Translations under genes and position numbers: made by a program
In this document: one piece after another, positions 4,865-18,446 of the stretch
How the letters are laid out: each line of letters begins with the position of its first letter
How positions within the stretch are numbered: position 1 is the first letter of the stretch
Assembly (NCBI GenBank): GCA_027063075.1
Contig: JAMOSM010000014.1
Span: 1-18,446 of the forward strand
Origin: Nautiliaceae bacterium
Lineage (GTDB): Bacteria; Campylobacterota; Campylobacteria; Campylobacterales; Nautiliaceae
DNA: 18,446 bases
Reading direction: 5' to 3'
The notes under the pieces: model-generated
What the model was told of the DNA's origin: nothing
What the model saw: only the letters and a program-made list of their open reading frames with translations
The model's database searches: none

Positions 4865-4999
4865 TTTTTTCTCCTTATATTTAAATTATAATAGTAGTAG
4901 TAGTAGATGTACGTGAATATGTGAAAAACTGCTCTCAAGCCCGAGTTTTCGGAAAGTTTTATGTGAATGAAATTTACAAAGTTATTCACATTATTCACC
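4865..4999. other. putative replication origin, dnaA-dnaN side (oriC2-like)
   Basis: The dnaA-dnaN gap holds an AT-rich segment (4871-4891), five tandem TAG triplets (4892-4906), and DnaA boxes at 4912-4920 (CGTGAATAT), 4920-4928 (TGTGAAAAA, exact reverse of TTTTTCACA), 4962-4970 (TGTGAATGA), 4982-4990 (TTATTCACA) and 4991-4999 (TTATTCACC, overlapping the dnaA stop). The order AT-rich segment, triplets, boxes is that of a bacterial unwinding module. In Helicobacter pylori the origin is bipartite, with box clusters on both sides of dnaA and unwinding in the downstream one. The same arrangement is seen here (assignment by analogy). dnaN's Shine-Dalgarno lies within the AT-rich part. Confidence 0.75.
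4889..4906 (+). repeat. DnaA-trio candidate: TAA plus five TAG triplets
   Basis: On the plus strand TAA at 4889-4891 is followed by TAG repeated five times at 4892-4906, then a 5-base spacer and the first DnaA box at 4912. Read 3' to 5' away from the boxes this is GAT x5 then AAT, which matches the published DnaA-trio pattern 3'-(G/A)A(T/A)-5'. Such repeats let a DnaA filament grip and open one strand. The spacer is not GC-rich as in Bacillus. Confidence 0.6.
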
Positions 5000-6298
5000 T
5001 TTTTTAAGTTGAATTTTATTTTTAAGCTCTTCTATTTTTATTCTGAAGTTGTTGTCTTTTTCAAGTTTTTTATTAAAGCTCTTAATTGCATGGCTTACTG
5101 CACTGTGGTCTTTTAATCCAAAATACTTTGCAATTGTGGGTGTTGATTCTTTTGTAAATTCACGTGCGAGATAAATTGCTGTTCTTCTTGCAGCCACAAT
5201 GTTTTGGTTTCTGCTTTTAGAAGTTATTTCACTTGGTTTTATATTGAATTCTTTTGCAATAAGTTCGATTATATCTTCAAGGGTTATATTCTCTTTTTTA
5301 TCTTTTATATGTTCTTTTAGAGCCTGCTTTGCAAAATCTCTTGTAATATCCCTAATTCCAAGCAGTTTTGCCATAGCATTTAGTTTTACAATCATTCCTT
5401 CAATCTCTCGTATATTGTCATTAAGTTTTGTTGCAATAAATTCAATAACCTCTTCTGGCAAATAAATTCCGTTTATTTCACATTTTTTACGGATAATTTC
5501 TATTTTTGTTTCAAGCTCCGGAGGTTGAATATCTACAATAAGCCCTGCTTCAAAGCGGCTTCTTAATCTATCTACTAAATCATTTAATTTTTTAGGAGGT
5601 CTATCAGATGATAGACAAATCTGTTTTTGCTGACTGTAAAGTTCATTAAATGTGTGGAAAAACTCTTCTTGGGTTTGTTCTTTTCCTGAGAAAAACTGAA
5701 CATCGTCTATTAAAAGGCAATCGCAGTTTCTGTACTTTTCGTGAAAAATATCCATTGTGTGATTTCTGACATGTTCTCTAAATTCATTCATAAACTGTTC
5801 GCTTGTTACATAAAGAACTTTCAGTTTTGTTTTTAAATAGTTTCCAATTGCCTGAAGAAGATGAGTTTTACCAAGTCCTACCCCTCCGTATATAAAAAGC
5901 GGATTATAGCTTTTTCCTGGATTGTGGGCGACTGTTTTTGCAGCTGTATAGGCAAACTGGTTTGAAGGCCCTACAATAAAACTCTCAAATGTATATTCCG
6001 GAATTAAGACAGAAGGAGCGGAGTTTGTTAGAATTTCTTCGGTTGAATATGTTTTAGGTTTTACTGTTTTTGTTGTAATTTCTATTATAGCTTCTATTCC
6101 TGTTTCTTTTTTATAAAGTTCTAGGATTTTATGTGCATATTTTCTTTTTATATAATTTGCTATGTAAATATTTGGAGCCTTAATTACAATTTTTGAACTG
6201 TTGCTTTGCTCTTCGTCAAATTCTAATTTTTTAATAATTTTATTATAATTCACTTGATTTTCACTTTTTAGTGATTCTTTAATTTTATCAAACAGCAA
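4991..6298 (-). CDS. dnaA: chromosomal replication initiator protein DnaA
   Basis: DnaA binds origin boxes, oligomerises with ATP and opens the duplex. The 435-residue product has a short domain I and linker (1-100), then the AAA+ core: Walker A GGVGLGKTH (138-146), Walker B LLIDDVQFF (195-203), and the arginine-finger region RLRSRFEAGL (244-253). The C-terminal domain IV carries the DnaA signature AARRTAIYLAREF (369-381) and the box-contacting motif KDHSAVSHAIK (396-406). The start is TTG at 6298: no in-frame ATG fits, and AAAAGG sits 7 bases upstream. TTG may lower expression. DnaA boxes lie on both sides, so autoregulation is likely (inference). It is first of the dnaA-dnaN-gyrB-queF minus-strand block. 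Confidence 0.97.
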   Translation of the reverse strand: MLFDKIKESLKSENQVNYNKIIKKLEFDEEQSNSSKIVIKAPNIYIANYIKRKYAHKILELYKKETGIEAIIEITTKTVKPKTYSTEEILTNSAPSVLIPEYTFESFIVGPSNQFAYTAAKTVAHNPGKSYNPLFIYGGVGLGKTHLLQAIGNYLKTKLKVLYVTSEQFMNEFREHVRNHTMDIFHEKYRNCDCLLIDDVQFFSGKEQTQEEFFHTFNELYSQQKQICLSSDRPPKKLNDLVDRLRSRFEAGLIVDIQPPELETKIEIIRKKCEINGIYLPEEVIEFIATKLNDNIREIEGMIVKLNAMAKLLGIRDITRDFAKQALKEHIKDKKENITLEDIIELIAKEFNIKPSEITSKSRNQNIVAARRTAIYLAREFTKESTPTIAKYFGLKDHSAVSHAIKSFNKKLEKDNNFRIKIEELKNKIQLKKGE

Positions 6299-9750: not shown

Positions 9751-9787
9751 TTTTTTGTTACTTATAACAAACAAAAGGCGGTATATA

Positions 9788-11077
9788 GTGCTTTTAACTA
9801 CAAACAACAGAGTTAAAACCCAAAATAAAGCAAAACTTGCAATTTTAAATGAACTCACAAGAAACTCGAAAGACTTATACAATAAAGCACTATATACCAT
9901 TAGACAACACTTCTTTTCAACAAAAGAGTATCTACCCTACATTGAAGTCTATAAACTCTTAAAATCAAGCGAAGAGTATAAAAGACTTCCAAGCAATGCA
10001 AGTCAGCAGACTTTAAAACAGGTCGATAATGCTTTTAAGAGCTTTTTCAAACTTTTAAAAGTTAAAAGTCAAGGACAAAAAGTCCATATTCCAAGATATT
10101 TGGATAAAGACGGGCATTACAAAGTAATTTATACAAAAATTCATTTAAAAACAATGGATAACGGATATATCAGACTTGCATTGCCAAAATATATCAAAGA
10201 AAAATACAAAGTTAATTATCTCTACTTTAAGATACCAAAACATATCCAGAACAAAGAGATAAAAGAAGTGCATATCTTGCCATATAAACCACATTACAAA
10301 ATATCGTTTGTATATAGCGACGGAGATAAAAATCTCAATAACTATATAACAGATGATATTATGGCAATAGACTTTGGAATAGACAACCTTGCGACCATTG
10401 TAACAAGATACGATAAACCTATACTGCTTGATGGCAAGTCCTTGAAATCCAAGAACAGATATTTCAATAAAAAAATATCTGTTTTGCTATCAAGTATAAC
10501 AAAGGGTAAAAATCCAAAAGAGTGGCAAAAAAAGAACTTTAAAAGATTAAACATCTGGTATCAAAGAAGAGAAAACTATATCAAAGACTATCTACATAAA
10601 ACAGCTACAAAAATAATCAACATCGCAATAGAAAAAGGAATTAAAACTATTGTAATAGGTTATAACAAACTATGGAAAAATAGATGTAATATCGGAAAAA
10701 AAAACAACGAAAAATTCCTCTCAATTCCTCATTCGAAATTACTTCAATACATCAAATACAAAGCTATTCAACATAAAATAGAGATAATCGAAATGGAGGA
10801 AAGCTATACTTCAAAATGTGATGCCCTTGCATTAGAGCCAATTCAAAAACACAAAAAATATCTTGGAAAAAGAGTTAAAAGAGGACTATTCCAATCAGGT
10901 ATAGGGAAATTAATCAATGCGGATGTAAACGGGGCGTTGAATATATTAAGAAAAAGCGTAGCCTGCGATTCTCTAATTAAAGAGATAGCAGGTAGAGGGC
11001 TTGTGTTCCAGCCTGTAAGGGTGCATATACACCCTTACAAACCTTCCTATAAAGGAAGCTCTCTCTATAATTCGTAA
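9788..11077 (+). CDS. tnpB: TnpB, RNA-guided nuclease of IS605/IS1341 type
   Basis: TnpB proteins are small RNA-guided DNA nucleases (ancestors of Cas12) that use RNA from their own 3' end. I choose GTG at 9788 over the longer TTG frame because AAAGG lies 9 bases upstream and the family-like N terminus (LYNKALYTIRQHFF, LPSNASQQTLKQV) starts there, giving 429 residues. The RuvC nuclease is split: Asp195 in MAIDFGIDNLATIV and Asp379 in LINADVNGALNIL. At the usual RuvC-II position, TIVIGYNKLWK, the glutamate is replaced (Gly291). An EE pair (337-338) before SYTSKC is the likely substitute. The usual CxxC...CxxC zinc finger is missing; only Cys344 remains. The C terminus RGLVFQPVR is shared with relatives. 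I judge this an unusual but functional-looking variant. Confidence 0.85.
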   Translation: MLLTTNNRVKTQNKAKLAILNELTRNSKDLYNKALYTIRQHFFSTKEYLPYIEVYKLLKSSEEYKRLPSNASQQTLKQVDNAFKSFFKLLKVKSQGQKVHIPRYLDKDGHYKVIYTKIHLKTMDNGYIRLALPKYIKEKYKVNYLYFKIPKHIQNKEIKEVHILPYKPHYKISFVYSDGDKNLNNYITDDIMAIDFGIDNLATIVTRYDKPILLDGKSLKSKNRYFNKKISVLLSSITKGKNPKEWQKKNFKRLNIWYQRRENYIKDYLHKTATKIINIAIEKGIKTIVIGYNKLWKNRCNIGKKNNEKFLSIPHSKLLQYIKYKAIQHKIEIIEMEESYTSKCDALALEPIQKHKKYLGKRVKRGLFQSGIGKLINADVNGALNILRKSVACDSLIKEIAGRGLVFQPVRVHIHPYKPSYKGSSLYNS

Positions 11078-16221: not shown

Positions 16222-16983
16222 TTATATCCTAACACTTATACTGTTTTTTCTTAAATATTGCTTTAAATCCATTATATCTATTTCTTTGAAATGAAATATG
16301 CTTGCCGCTAACGCCGCATCCGCTTTATGCTCAAAAACCTCTTTAAAATGTTCCATTTTTCCTGCTCCTCCGCTTGCAATTACCGGAACATTAACAAGTG
16401 AGGATATTTTTTCTGTTATTTCGATGTCAAACCCGGCTTTTGTTCCGTCTGCATCCATCGATGTTAAAAGTATCTCACCTGCTCCTCTATCTACTACCTC
16501 TTTTGCCCATTTTATTGCATCAAGTCCTGTGTCTTCACGGCCTCCTTTGATAAAAACATGCCACTTATCATGAGCCACTTTTTTAACATCAATTGCTACT
16601 ACAATACATTGAGATCCAAATCTTTTAGAAGCTTCGTTTATAAATTCAGGTTTTTTTACTGCAGCTGAATTGATGCTGACTTTATCGCATCCTACATTTA
16701 ATAAATCATAAATATCATTAAGTTCGCTTATTCCTCCTCCGACAGTGAGAGGAATAAATACTTCACGCGCCACTTCTTTTACAATATCCACAATAGGTTT
16801 TCTTTCTTCATAACTTGCGGTAATATCAAGAAAAGTCAGTTCATCAGCTCCTTCTTCGTTATAACGTATAGCTGCTTCTACCGGGTCGCCTGCATCTTTA
16901 AGTCCTACAAAATTAACACCTTTTACAACCCTTCCGTTTTTTACATCTAAACAGGGAATTATCCTTTTGGCAAAATACTCCAT
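16222..16983 (-). CDS. hisF: imidazole glycerol phosphate synthase subunit HisF
   Basis: HisF is the cyclase half of the histidine pathway's glutamine amidotransferase; it joins PRFAR with ammonia from HisH to give IGP and AICAR. The 253-residue TIM barrel starts [18 protein letters not shown] with catalytic Asp13. The second catalytic Asp132 is in [57 protein letters not shown] and PVIASGGAG are all present. It opens the minus-strand operon hisF-exported protein-nucleoside phosphorylase-rlmN-DUF3343. hisH is not in the window. Divergent from ksgA across a 59-base gap. Identification is secure. Confidence 0.97.
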
Positions 16984-16999
16984 TTAGCGCCTTTTTTGT

Positions 17000-17005
17000 T
17001 ATAAT
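17000..17005 (+). promoter_or_regulatory. -10 element of ksgA
   Basis: A perfect TATAAT at 17000-17005 on the plus strand would start transcription near 17012, giving a roughly 31-base leader before the ATA codon at 17043. The same strand has AAAGGA at 17031-17036. It is the only plausible plus-strand promoter in the 59-base hisF-ksgA gap. Confidence 0.5.
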
Positions 17006-17030
17006 TTTAGCATACTATTTACTTTTAAAG

Positions 17031-17036
17031 AAAGGA
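17031..17036 (+). promoter_or_regulatory. Shine-Dalgarno site pointing at the ksgA ATA codon
   Basis: AAAGGA ends 6 bases before ATA (17043). The nearer ATG at 17038-17040 is only 1 base from it and gives the two-codon frame ATG CTA TAA, so it cannot serve as the start. The spacing therefore selects ATA. Confidence 0.55.
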
Positions 17037-17042
17037 TATGCT

Positions 17043-17816
17043 ATAATCAAGGCGAAAAAGAAGTTTGGTCAAAATTTTTTAAAAGACAGGCATTATTTAG
17101 AAAAAATCGTCCAAGCGATGCCCAATACTGATAATTTGGTAGTAGAAATTGGGCCTGGCTTAGGCGATTTAACAGAAAAGCTGCTGGAAAAAAGAAGAGT
17201 TACAGCTTTTGAGATAGACAAAGAACTTTGTGAAATTTTAAAAGAAAAATTTCCAAATCTTAATTTAAAATGTGGTGATGTATTAGAGTATTGGCAAGAG
17301 AGCTTGGCAGATGAAGATTATGACTTAATAGCAAATCTGCCATATTATGTAGCAACAAATATTATTTTAAAAGCACTAAGAGATAAAAATGCAAAAAATA
17401 TTGTTGTTTTAATTCAAAAAGAGGTAGCAGATAAATTTGCGGCAAAACCTGGTGAGAAAAATTACGGCAGTCTAGCTATTTTAGCCCAGCAGGTGGCTGA
17501 TGTTAAAAAACTTTTTGATATTCCGCCGGGTGCGTTTGTTCCGTCACCAAAGGTGATGAGTAGTGTTATTAGTTTTTCTAAATTTAAAGATTCATACGAT
17601 GAGGAGTTTGCCAAATTTTTAAAAATAGCTTTTGCAAACCCAAGAAAGACTTTAAAGAAAAATTTATCTGTATATGATTTTAAACCTCAGGAATTCGGAC
17701 TTGCCGATACCATAAGACCTCACCAGGTTGATGGCTCTACTTTTTTCCGGCTCTTTTCTGCGCTAAAAGAAAGGAGTAAAAATGGAAAAAGAAATAAATC
17801 TACAAGAAGCGATTAA
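17043..17816 (+). CDS. rsmA: 16S rRNA dimethyladenosine transferase KsgA/RsmA, ATA start
   Basis: KsgA dimethylates A1518 and A1519 in helix 45 of 16S rRNA and checks 30S maturation. The conserved N-terminal motif KKFGQNFLKD (6-15) lies upstream of the first in-frame ATG (17118), so the coding sequence must start earlier. In frame, no ATG, GTG or TTG precedes the motif. The codon aligned with the usual Met (protein (I/M)IKAKKKFGQNF) is ATA at 17043, preceded by AAAGGA at 6 bases. This gives 257 residues. Motif I EIGPGLGDLTEKL is at 35-47 and catalytic NLPYYV at 98-103. The gene overlaps rnj by 35 bases in another frame. Either a rare ATA start, a start-codon mutation, or a base-call error explains it. 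Confidence 0.9.
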   Translation: MIKAKKKFGQNFLKDRHYLEKIVQAMPNTDNLVVEIGPGLGDLTEKLLEKRRVTAFEIDKELCEILKEKFPNLNLKCGDVLEYWQESLADEDYDLIANLPYYVATNIILKALRDKNAKNIVVLIQKEVADKFAAKPGEKNYGSLAILAQQVADVKKLFDIPPGAFVPSPKVMSSVISFSKFKDSYDEEFAKFLKIAFANPRKTLKKNLSVYDFKPQEFGLADTIRPHQVDGSTFFRLFSALKERSKNGKRNKSTRSD

Positions 17817-18446
17817 AAATACAATAGAAGAAAATTTAAAACCTGAAACTTTAGAAAAAGAGAATAAAGAAAACAGCGAAACTCCAAAAAATCAAAAAAA
17901 CATCAATAAAAAATTACACTCTAAGCAAAATCATCAACAAATAAAAAAAACTGATTCCAAAAATTTTGTGTGGTTTAAAGATTTAAATAAAGCTTTTAAT
18001 GAAAATGAAAAAATACAGCAGGCGAGACTTAGTTGTTTTAATAAAATAGATTCAAATAAAAAAGGATGGGTAAGATTTACACCTCTTGGCGGACTTGATG
18101 AAATTGGCGGTAACTGTGCTGTACTTGAAACGGAAGATAGTGCGATTATTATTGATTGTGGTATGAGTTTTCCAAGTGAGGATATGCACGGAGTTGATAT
18201 TTTAATTCCAGATTTTAGTTATCTTAGAGAAATACGTCATAAAATAAAAGGTCTTATTATTACTCACGGACACGAAGACCATATAGGTGCTGTTCCGTAT
18301 CTATTTAAAGAGATGCAGTTTCCAATTTATGGTACTTCTCTTCCTCTTGCGATGATTGAAAATAAATTTAAAGAACATAAAATTCATCATTACAAAAGCT
18401 ATTTTAGAAGCGTTAAAAAAAGAACTCCTATTCAGATAGGCGATTT
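17782..18446 (+). CDS. rnj: ribonuclease J, N-terminal part (runs off window)
   Basis: RNase J is a metallo-beta-lactamase exo/endonuclease for mRNA decay and rRNA maturation. It starts at ATG 17782 with AAGGAG upstream, within the ksgA tail. The first about 95 residues form a Lys-, Asn-, Glu-rich, low-complexity extension (KKLHSKQNHQQIKK). The catalytic domain follows: RFTPLGGLDEIGGNCAVLE, IIDCGMSFPSEDMHGVDILIPDF, and the zinc motif THGHEDHIGA with His162, His164, Asp166 and His167. A long N-terminal extension is also found in Helicobacter RNase J. ksgA-rnj adjacency is known in Campylobacter and Helicobacter. The 221 codons in the window reach into the beta-lactamase core. Confidence 0.93.
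   Translation, partial: MEKEINLQEAIKNTIEENLKPETLEKENKENSETPKNQKNINKKLHSKQNHQQIKKTDSKNFVWFKDLNKAFNENEKIQQARLSCFNKIDSNKKGWVRFTPLGGLDEIGGNCAVLETEDSAIIIDCGMSFPSEDMHGVDILIPDFSYLREIRHKIKGLIITHGHEDHIGAVPYLFKEMQFPIYGTSLPLAMIENKFKEHKIHHYKSYFRSVKKRTPIQIGD

Follow-up and report, generated by a model that had tools for sequence, protein, structure and literature searches.

Which codon initiates translation of ksgA when the reading frame offers none of the usual ones ahead of a conserved N-terminal motif? The question is raised by an 18,446-nucleotide stretch of DNA from a member of the Nautiliaceae, a family of deep-sea vent bacteria. The stretch (hereafter the window; contig JAMOSM010000014.1, or C14) is part of a 1.23 Mb assembly (G000) that is split into 174 contigs and is 70% complete. 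Read from an ATA triplet, the ksgA (rsmA) coding sequence occupies positions 17043 to 17816 of the plus strand, an open frame of 257 codons plus stop. Its product scores 225.2 bits against the KsgA/RsmA model TIGR00755 (cut-off 171), stays under the respective cut-offs of the related Erm and PRK14896 models, and is the sole match to itself in its own genome (E 0.001). The translation includes both FGQNFL and NLPY, which we take to be N-terminal motifs of KsgA. The end of ksgA is overlapped by the open reading frame of rnj (RNase J; 17782 to 18446, plus strand), which runs past the end of the window; so truncated, it aligns with the first 124 of the 546 positions in the TIGR00649 profile and yields 161.4 bits against a cut-off of 400. 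On the other side lies the divergent hisF gene (16222 to 16983, minus strand; TIGR00735, 375.8 bits, cut-off 294.55), 59 bases from the ATA. Elsewhere in the window, a TnpB-family frame of the IS200/IS605 type (9755 to 11077, plus strand, 440 codons; NF040570, 170.8 bits, cut-off 100) is flanked by kdsA and dapF, both named by reading, and a frame named dnaA by reading (4991 to 6298, minus strand) has TTG as its first codon in the mechanical list of open reading frames.

A preliminary description of this DNA had proposed the ATA as the ksgA start. The elements on which it drew are all where it placed them: a Shine-Dalgarno (SD) sequence, AAAGGA, at 17031-17036; a minimal ATG CTA TAA frame at 17038-17046, overlapping the ATA (17043-17045); and the first in-frame ATG (codon 26) at 17118-17120. 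Scanning of the open frame from its upstream end to 17118 likewise bore out the statement that it holds no ATG, GTG or TTG. The FGQNFL motif (17064-17081), within a KKKFGQNFLKD stretch, does lie between the ATA and this ATG. Conservation of the protein upstream of 17118 rules the ATG out as the start; at its position some other lineages have isoleucine codons.

Relatives were sought in 60 genomes, the window's own included. A ksgA gene was detected in 59 of them, and in 20 of the 21 genomes from the window's family (f1), the one without a match being the 57% complete G015. In all 21 genomes compared, 19 from f1 and two from the sister family f13, ksgA carries the block AAAGGATATGNTATAAT. The start region reads AAAGGA TATGNT ATA AT(C/A) throughout, the SD sequence (six bases upstream from the ATA) and the ATA itself being invariant. 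The block is present in the single-contig genomes G003, G010 and G013 and, in the same form, in another Nautiliaceae contig, JAMORJ010000003.1 (L031). A search with the pattern AGGATATGNTATAAT gave 25 occurrences in 24 of the 60 genomes, 21 at ksgA and four elsewhere (G008, G022, G026 and G030). The possibility, raised at the outset, that relatives would have ATG at the aligned place was not borne out within the family; G009, the sole one of the 20 f1 genomes with ksgA to lack the block, has an in-frame TTG instead. In other Campylobacterota, the aligned codon can be ATG or TTG (e.g., L054, L107, L098).

Sequences upstream from the ATA speak for the same start. An in-frame stop is found five codons before it, just ahead of AAA GGA, in eight of the 21 genomes, and the codon immediately preceding it varies freely (GCT in six, GAT in eight, GTT in four, GGT in three, specifying Ala, Asp, Val and Gly, respectively). 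Two genomes of the 21 (L010 and L018) have an additional in-frame TTG; this was discarded as a start codon, being confined to these two and located just 5′ of the SD sequence. Also discarded was a -1 frameshift from the ATG at 17038: the base following this ATG varies freely and thus no fixed slippery sequence exists. The extent of the protein was then delimited from codon constraint, measured as pairwise codon differences among the 21 genomes. The five codons at or before the SD sequence show 17 synonymous and 660 non-synonymous differences; codons 1-2, counting from the ATA, show 38 and 0; codons 3-15, 585 and 174; codons 16-25, where synonymous sites are held by an RNA hairpin (see below), 279 and 700; and codons 26-60, 1415 and 1380. 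Protein-type constraint therefore sets in at codons 1-2, indicating that translation starts at the ATA or, at the latest, at the next codon. The latter (ATC or ATA) is likewise of the AUH type (AUA, AUC or AUU) and lies nine bases from the SD sequence, so that as an alternative start it is not strictly excluded. On this comparative evidence, ksgA of the window and of its family is almost certainly translated from AUA.

Is ksgA peculiar in this respect? Within f1, we compared 250 non-overlapping ortholog pairs between G003 and G010, which represent two genera (800 kb were taken from either genome), flagging pairs in which at least eight aligned residues preceded the first ATG, GTG or TTG in both orthologs, and judging flagged pairs by eye. 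Eighteen pairs were flagged; on reading, 17 of these reflected leader or SD conservation, overlapping genes, or rRNA or antisense frames. The ksgA pair was the only one of the 250 judged to have conserved protein before the first usual start. Furthermore, infC starts with ATG in the 18 f1/f13 loci read, which argues against a general laxity of start codon use in these families. In several other Campylobacterales families (L139-L143, L146), infC apparently starts with TTG.

We then surveyed ksgA starts in 148 Campylobacterales genomes. A search at the phylum level yielded 91 genomes, all from this one order, which sets the scope of the survey. The sample is non-random: it comprises every f1 genome in which ksgA was found (20), 18 members of a single genus of family f14 (presumably the Helicobacter family, judging from the KsgA of H. 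pylori) and hand-picked members among the matches listed. The tally was ATG 60, TTG 43, GTG 10, ATA 23, ATT 10 and ATC 2, the split among the first three being approximate since ties were broken by the SD sequence; G004 and G012 count here as TTG despite an intact ATA block and were coded as AUH in the tree described below. The 35 genomes with AUH starts have no ATG, GTG or TTG within 20 codons of the FGQNF-type motif. Each of these loci offers one to five AUH codons; the best of them is preceded by an SD match of at least five bases in 33 loci (the exceptions being G303 and G308), as compared to 2.8-3.1% of AUH codons overall in stretches taken from four genomes. The AUH starts fall into four groups: f1 plus f13 (ATA), the f14 genus, G104 (ATC) and G040 (ATT). 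In the f14 genus, ATT, ATA or ATC occurs at about the same place in 14 of the 18 genomes, the others having TTG (two) or ATG (two). A KsgA tree of 78 rows, 11 of which are hand-picked named loci and from which five near-identical H. pylori-like rows were omitted, requires at least eight changes between AUH and other starts, four of them forced by well-supported branches. The ortholog control was repeated in the f14 genus with 57 pairs from G299 and G135; three pairs were flagged, none of them real by reading, and ksgA itself went unflagged owing to a distant upstream TTG in G135.

Why would ksgA retain such a start? We suggest that AUA is retained for its weakness. IF3, together with fully methylated 30S subunits, would reject AUA most of the time, holding KsgA at a low level; should KsgA activity fall, under-methylated 30S subunits would be more tolerant of AUA and more KsgA would be made, in a loop resembling that of infC. 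Elements of this scheme have precedents in the literature. In E. coli and Haloferax deficient in KsgA, the proteins that rise are enriched in non-AUG starts, an effect described for non-AUG starts in general and not for AUA specifically (PMC7897474); an earlier reporter study, as cited there, agrees on non-AUG starts in the absence of KsgA. According to PMC5472188, IF3 rejects AUH and accepts ATG, GTG and TTG, and represses the ATT start of infC in E. coli and the GTC start of sigR in Streptomyces, where infC has ATC. The 30S locations of KsgA and IF3 overlap (PMC9032327). Together, these reports make a loop in which low KsgA would raise initiation at AUA a reasonable hypothesis. In the titles and abstracts of the open-licence papers listed, we found no description of AUH starts of ksgA. 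As a whole, an AUA start kept weak by selection and acting in infC-like feedback is the explanation that we favor, with somewhat better than even confidence. Its parts differ in strength: it is likely that the weak start matters for the KsgA level, whereas KsgA-dependent feedback itself is put forward tentatively, at somewhat short of an even chance.

The strongest competing interpretation dispenses with feedback. If an excess of KsgA is harmful, then AUA, AUU, AUC, UUG and GUG may simply be weak starts that keep the protein scarce. The TTG and GTG starts that accompany the AUH codons in the survey accord with this idea, as does the finding that chlamydial KsgA, whose gene in Chlamydiaceae has a predicted GUG or UUG start, slowed growth when overproduced in E. 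coli (PMC2807437). The recurrence of AUU, AUA and AUC fits feedback and plain low dose equally well. Not every member of the order needs a weak start, as shown by the 60 genomes with ATG and, within f1, by the TTG of G009. Two facts weigh against dose alone: IF3 discriminates between AUH on the one hand and ATG, GTG and TTG on the other (PMC5472188), and the f14 genus holds on to AUH in 14 of 18 genomes while swapping ATT, ATA and ATC for one another. We regard a pure dosage effect as a serious contender whose chances nonetheless fall somewhat below one half.

A second interpretation traces the ATA to DNA-level constraint. The extended -10 element of sigma-70 promoters is TGnTATAAT, preferably TRTGnTATAAT. 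A perfect promoter-like match to the extended form (TATGCTATAAT, positions 17037-17047, plus strand; P2) sits on the ksgA start codon. The sequence TATGnTATAAT is present at this place in all 21 genomes, with its ten fixed bases invariant and n alone varying. A second element (TGTTATAAT, 16997-17005, plus strand; P1), 37 bases before the ATA, is the likely -10 of the ksgA promoter. TATAAT occurs 27-40 bases before the ATA in 19 of the 21 genomes, in 17 of them as TGnTATAAT, and is absent in L018 and L020; the ksgA leader is probably short and made at P1. Initiation on a leaderless transcript from P2 was considered and rejected, as no start codon follows. So was the notion that the whole AGGATATGNTATAAT block is a general promoter, 21 of the 25 matches to the pattern being at ksgA.

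Under this second interpretation P2 must lie where it does, perhaps transcribing rnj from about 17054, and the ATA is a compromise, kept because an ATG at 17043 would spoil the TATAAT. Besides the invariance of the ten bases, the surroundings of the other copies point in this direction. TATGnTATAAT occurs 22 times in the 1.6 Mb taken from G003 and G010, two of these being the ksgA copies; among the remaining 20, 18 fall outside genes (as delimited by simple gene calls), and in 11 of the 18 a called start follows at a distance of 18-30 bases. Moreover, G009, the only f1 genome with ksgA that lacks the ATA, lacks P2 as well. Against this, the element is not enriched overall, its 22 copies comparing with roughly 34 expected on both strands from base composition; a P2 transcript would be devoid of the ksgA start; and AUH starts in other lineages occur without TGnTATAAT at that place. 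In 217 distinct ksgA 5′ regions, a TGnTATAAT on the start codon is limited to f1 and f13, L246 having one nine bases further upstream. The promoter thus cannot be the general or whole cause of AUH starts. The overlapping -10 element explains part of the invariance around the ATA equally well, and two constraints may meet at the ATA of f1/f13 ksgA. That the ATA is a by-product of P2 strikes us as somewhat less likely than not.

Further downstream, the ksgA sequence contains a 20-pair RNA hairpin spanning codons 21-43, with arms at 17104-17126 and 17148-17170 (plus strand; 93 bits). In the window its folding energy is -28.8 kcal/mol (z -3.4; one in 200 shuffles as good). Synonymous change among the 21 genomes is reduced in codons 22-30, with the same codon in a fraction of 0.88 of pairs against 0.46 expected, and in codons 36-44 (0.81 against 0.36); it is likewise reduced in the final codons of ksgA, where the gene overlaps or borders on rnj. 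Within the set of 21 f1/f13 sequences, 97.1% of hairpin cells pair, and both the number of double-change pairs (two) and the pair types are unexceptional, being reached by 92 and 418 of 500 shuffles, respectively. For 84 diverse sequences the figures are as follows: 93.1% of cells are paired (reached by none of 500 shuffles), compared to 21-52% for slid structures; the covariation score is 0.160 vs 0.097 (again reached by 0/500); double-change pairs number seven (reached by 36/500); and pair types are reached by 11/500. The covariation sometimes alters amino acids, for example from Met-Pro to Ile-Ala. With shuffling of synonymous codons as control, the mean was 19.45 out of 20 pairs vs 14.8 in 20 f1/f13 loci (L004 was missed by the motif) and 18.2 vs 13.9 pairs in 203 other loci, a figure that includes repeats of the same genome.

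Sixteen pairs or fewer were found in just 11 of 178 distinct arms: eight H. pylori-like loci, L199, L200 and L372. L199 was probably misplaced by the motif, as the covariance model scores 55.6 bits at another locus (L362) from the same genome. The H. pylori-like loci (L166-L172, L177) are without the hairpin, have the motif SLGQHF and start with ATG. The covariance model, applied to 150 first-look candidates per genome, matched in 30 of 31 genomes (G015 giving none), with the best match at ksgA in 29. A search of Rfam with positions 16900-17900 found no family near its gathering score, all matches being far below. The hairpin thus appears to be conserved over most of the Campylobacterales loci read.

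What the hairpin serves is suggested by an exceptional gene arrangement. Of 157 loci, 142 have rnj after ksgA according to a motif search and seven more according to reading; seven loci are too short to tell, and the last belongs to G027 (L434:1501-1569 and L435), the only genome found in which the two genes are apart (no rnj in the 656 bases available after ksgA). The ksgA region of G027 forms 12 of the 20 pairs, the hairpin being lost; on another contig, rnj (496.3 bits with TIGR00649, cut-off 400) is preceded by a 34-bit match to the hairpin, 190 bases from its likely ATG and within what appears by eye to be a relic of ksgA. This leader hairpin has a minimum free energy of -15.3 vs -6.8 (standard deviation 2.1), a value matched by none of 300 shuffles. 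Loss of the hairpin from ksgA and its presence in the rnj leader suggest that it probably belongs to rnj, for instance as a leader sensitive to RNase J, a conclusion drawn from this one genome. In the H. pylori-like loci, rnj follows ksgA and the hairpin is absent.

The hairpin had been read initially as a site where KsgA binds its own mRNA, at codons 21-43, to repress translation whatever the start codon; this reading was dropped in view of the rnj arrangement in G027. Conservation over most of the order would suit such a site, and a 1989 report is said to have described autogenous control of ksgA translation in E. coli, with binding to its own mRNA. Yet the G027 ksgA has kept only 12 of the 20 pairs while the structure lies in the rnj leader, and E. 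coli ksgA forms only five of 20 as placed, making binding by KsgA an improbable explanation.

Less credible still is termination-reinitiation, which the preliminary description had proposed: ribosomes would start at the ATG at 17038, read two codons, stop at the TAA (17044-17046) and restart at the overlapping ATA. The ATG NTA TAA arrangement, with its overlap, is indeed present in all 21 genomes. However, AAAGGA is one base from this ATG, which is too close, and six from the ATA; the T before the ATG and the T at the second position of the second codon are invariant although a mini-ORF has no need for them; and AUH starts in other lineages lack any such frame. TATGnTATAAT is better read as an extended -10 promoter sitting on the start codon than as a mini-ORF, and we consider reinitiation very unlikely. 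Finally, the caveat that a base error or mis-reading hides a true start at the 17118 ATG, to which a fragmented and incomplete assembly might lend some color, can be set aside with near certainty since an identical block is found in 21 genomes, those in single contigs included, and FGQNFL is conserved 5′ of this ATG.

To our knowledge, well-studied genes with AUH starts are few, infC being the textbook one. KsgA acts at the same step as IF3, the fidelity of the 30S P site. If the AUA scheme is correct, the recurrent AUH starts of ksgA would add to infC another start-codon sensor that works by a different mechanism, responding to the methylation of rRNA, and the matching of KsgA output to ribosome production would become testable. 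In practical terms, gene finders limited to ATG, GTG and TTG would truncate or mis-start such KsgA proteins. The comparison also brought up two new leads, the promoter-like sequence overlapping the start codon and the rnj hairpin, the latter being a conserved RNA within a coding sequence that opens a separate way into RNase J control in a large order. One could go further and view the ksgA 5′ end as stacked control, combining an AUH start that senses fidelity, a Nautiliaceae promoter on the start codon and an order-wide rnj hairpin responsive to RNase J. Two maturation or decay enzymes would then be under two feedback loops within a single 130-base stretch; we consider this combined reading speculative and rather unlikely.

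How do these features compare with known systems? In E. coli, the leaders of rne and pnp are hairpins that allow an RNase to regulate the mRNA encoding it. The present hairpin resembles them in being conserved and tied to an RNase gene, rnj, and differs in residing inside the upstream gene, ksgA, and in being known here from sequence comparisons. Chlamydiaceae offer the same gene with a weak start; there, GUG and UUG are ordinary alternative starts and no AUH is involved (PMC2807437). The Streptomyces sigR gene, with its IF3-repressed GTC, shares with ksgA a tendency to be misread by gene finders and a non-canonical start, which holds the protein at a low level in sigR and probably does so in ksgA; unlike the putative ksgA loop, sigR is not self-regulating through its product, and both the codon and the gene are different (PMC5472188). 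The closest parallel is infC, at whose start codon IF3 controls its own production and which, with AUU in E. coli and ATC in Streptomyces, combines a conserved AUH start with an SD sequence as ksgA does here (PMC5472188). Both products belong to the machinery of 30S start-codon fidelity. The gene with the AUH start is nonetheless ksgA, infC having ATG in these bacteria, and the putative ksgA feedback would operate through methylation of 16S rRNA and not through an initiation factor.
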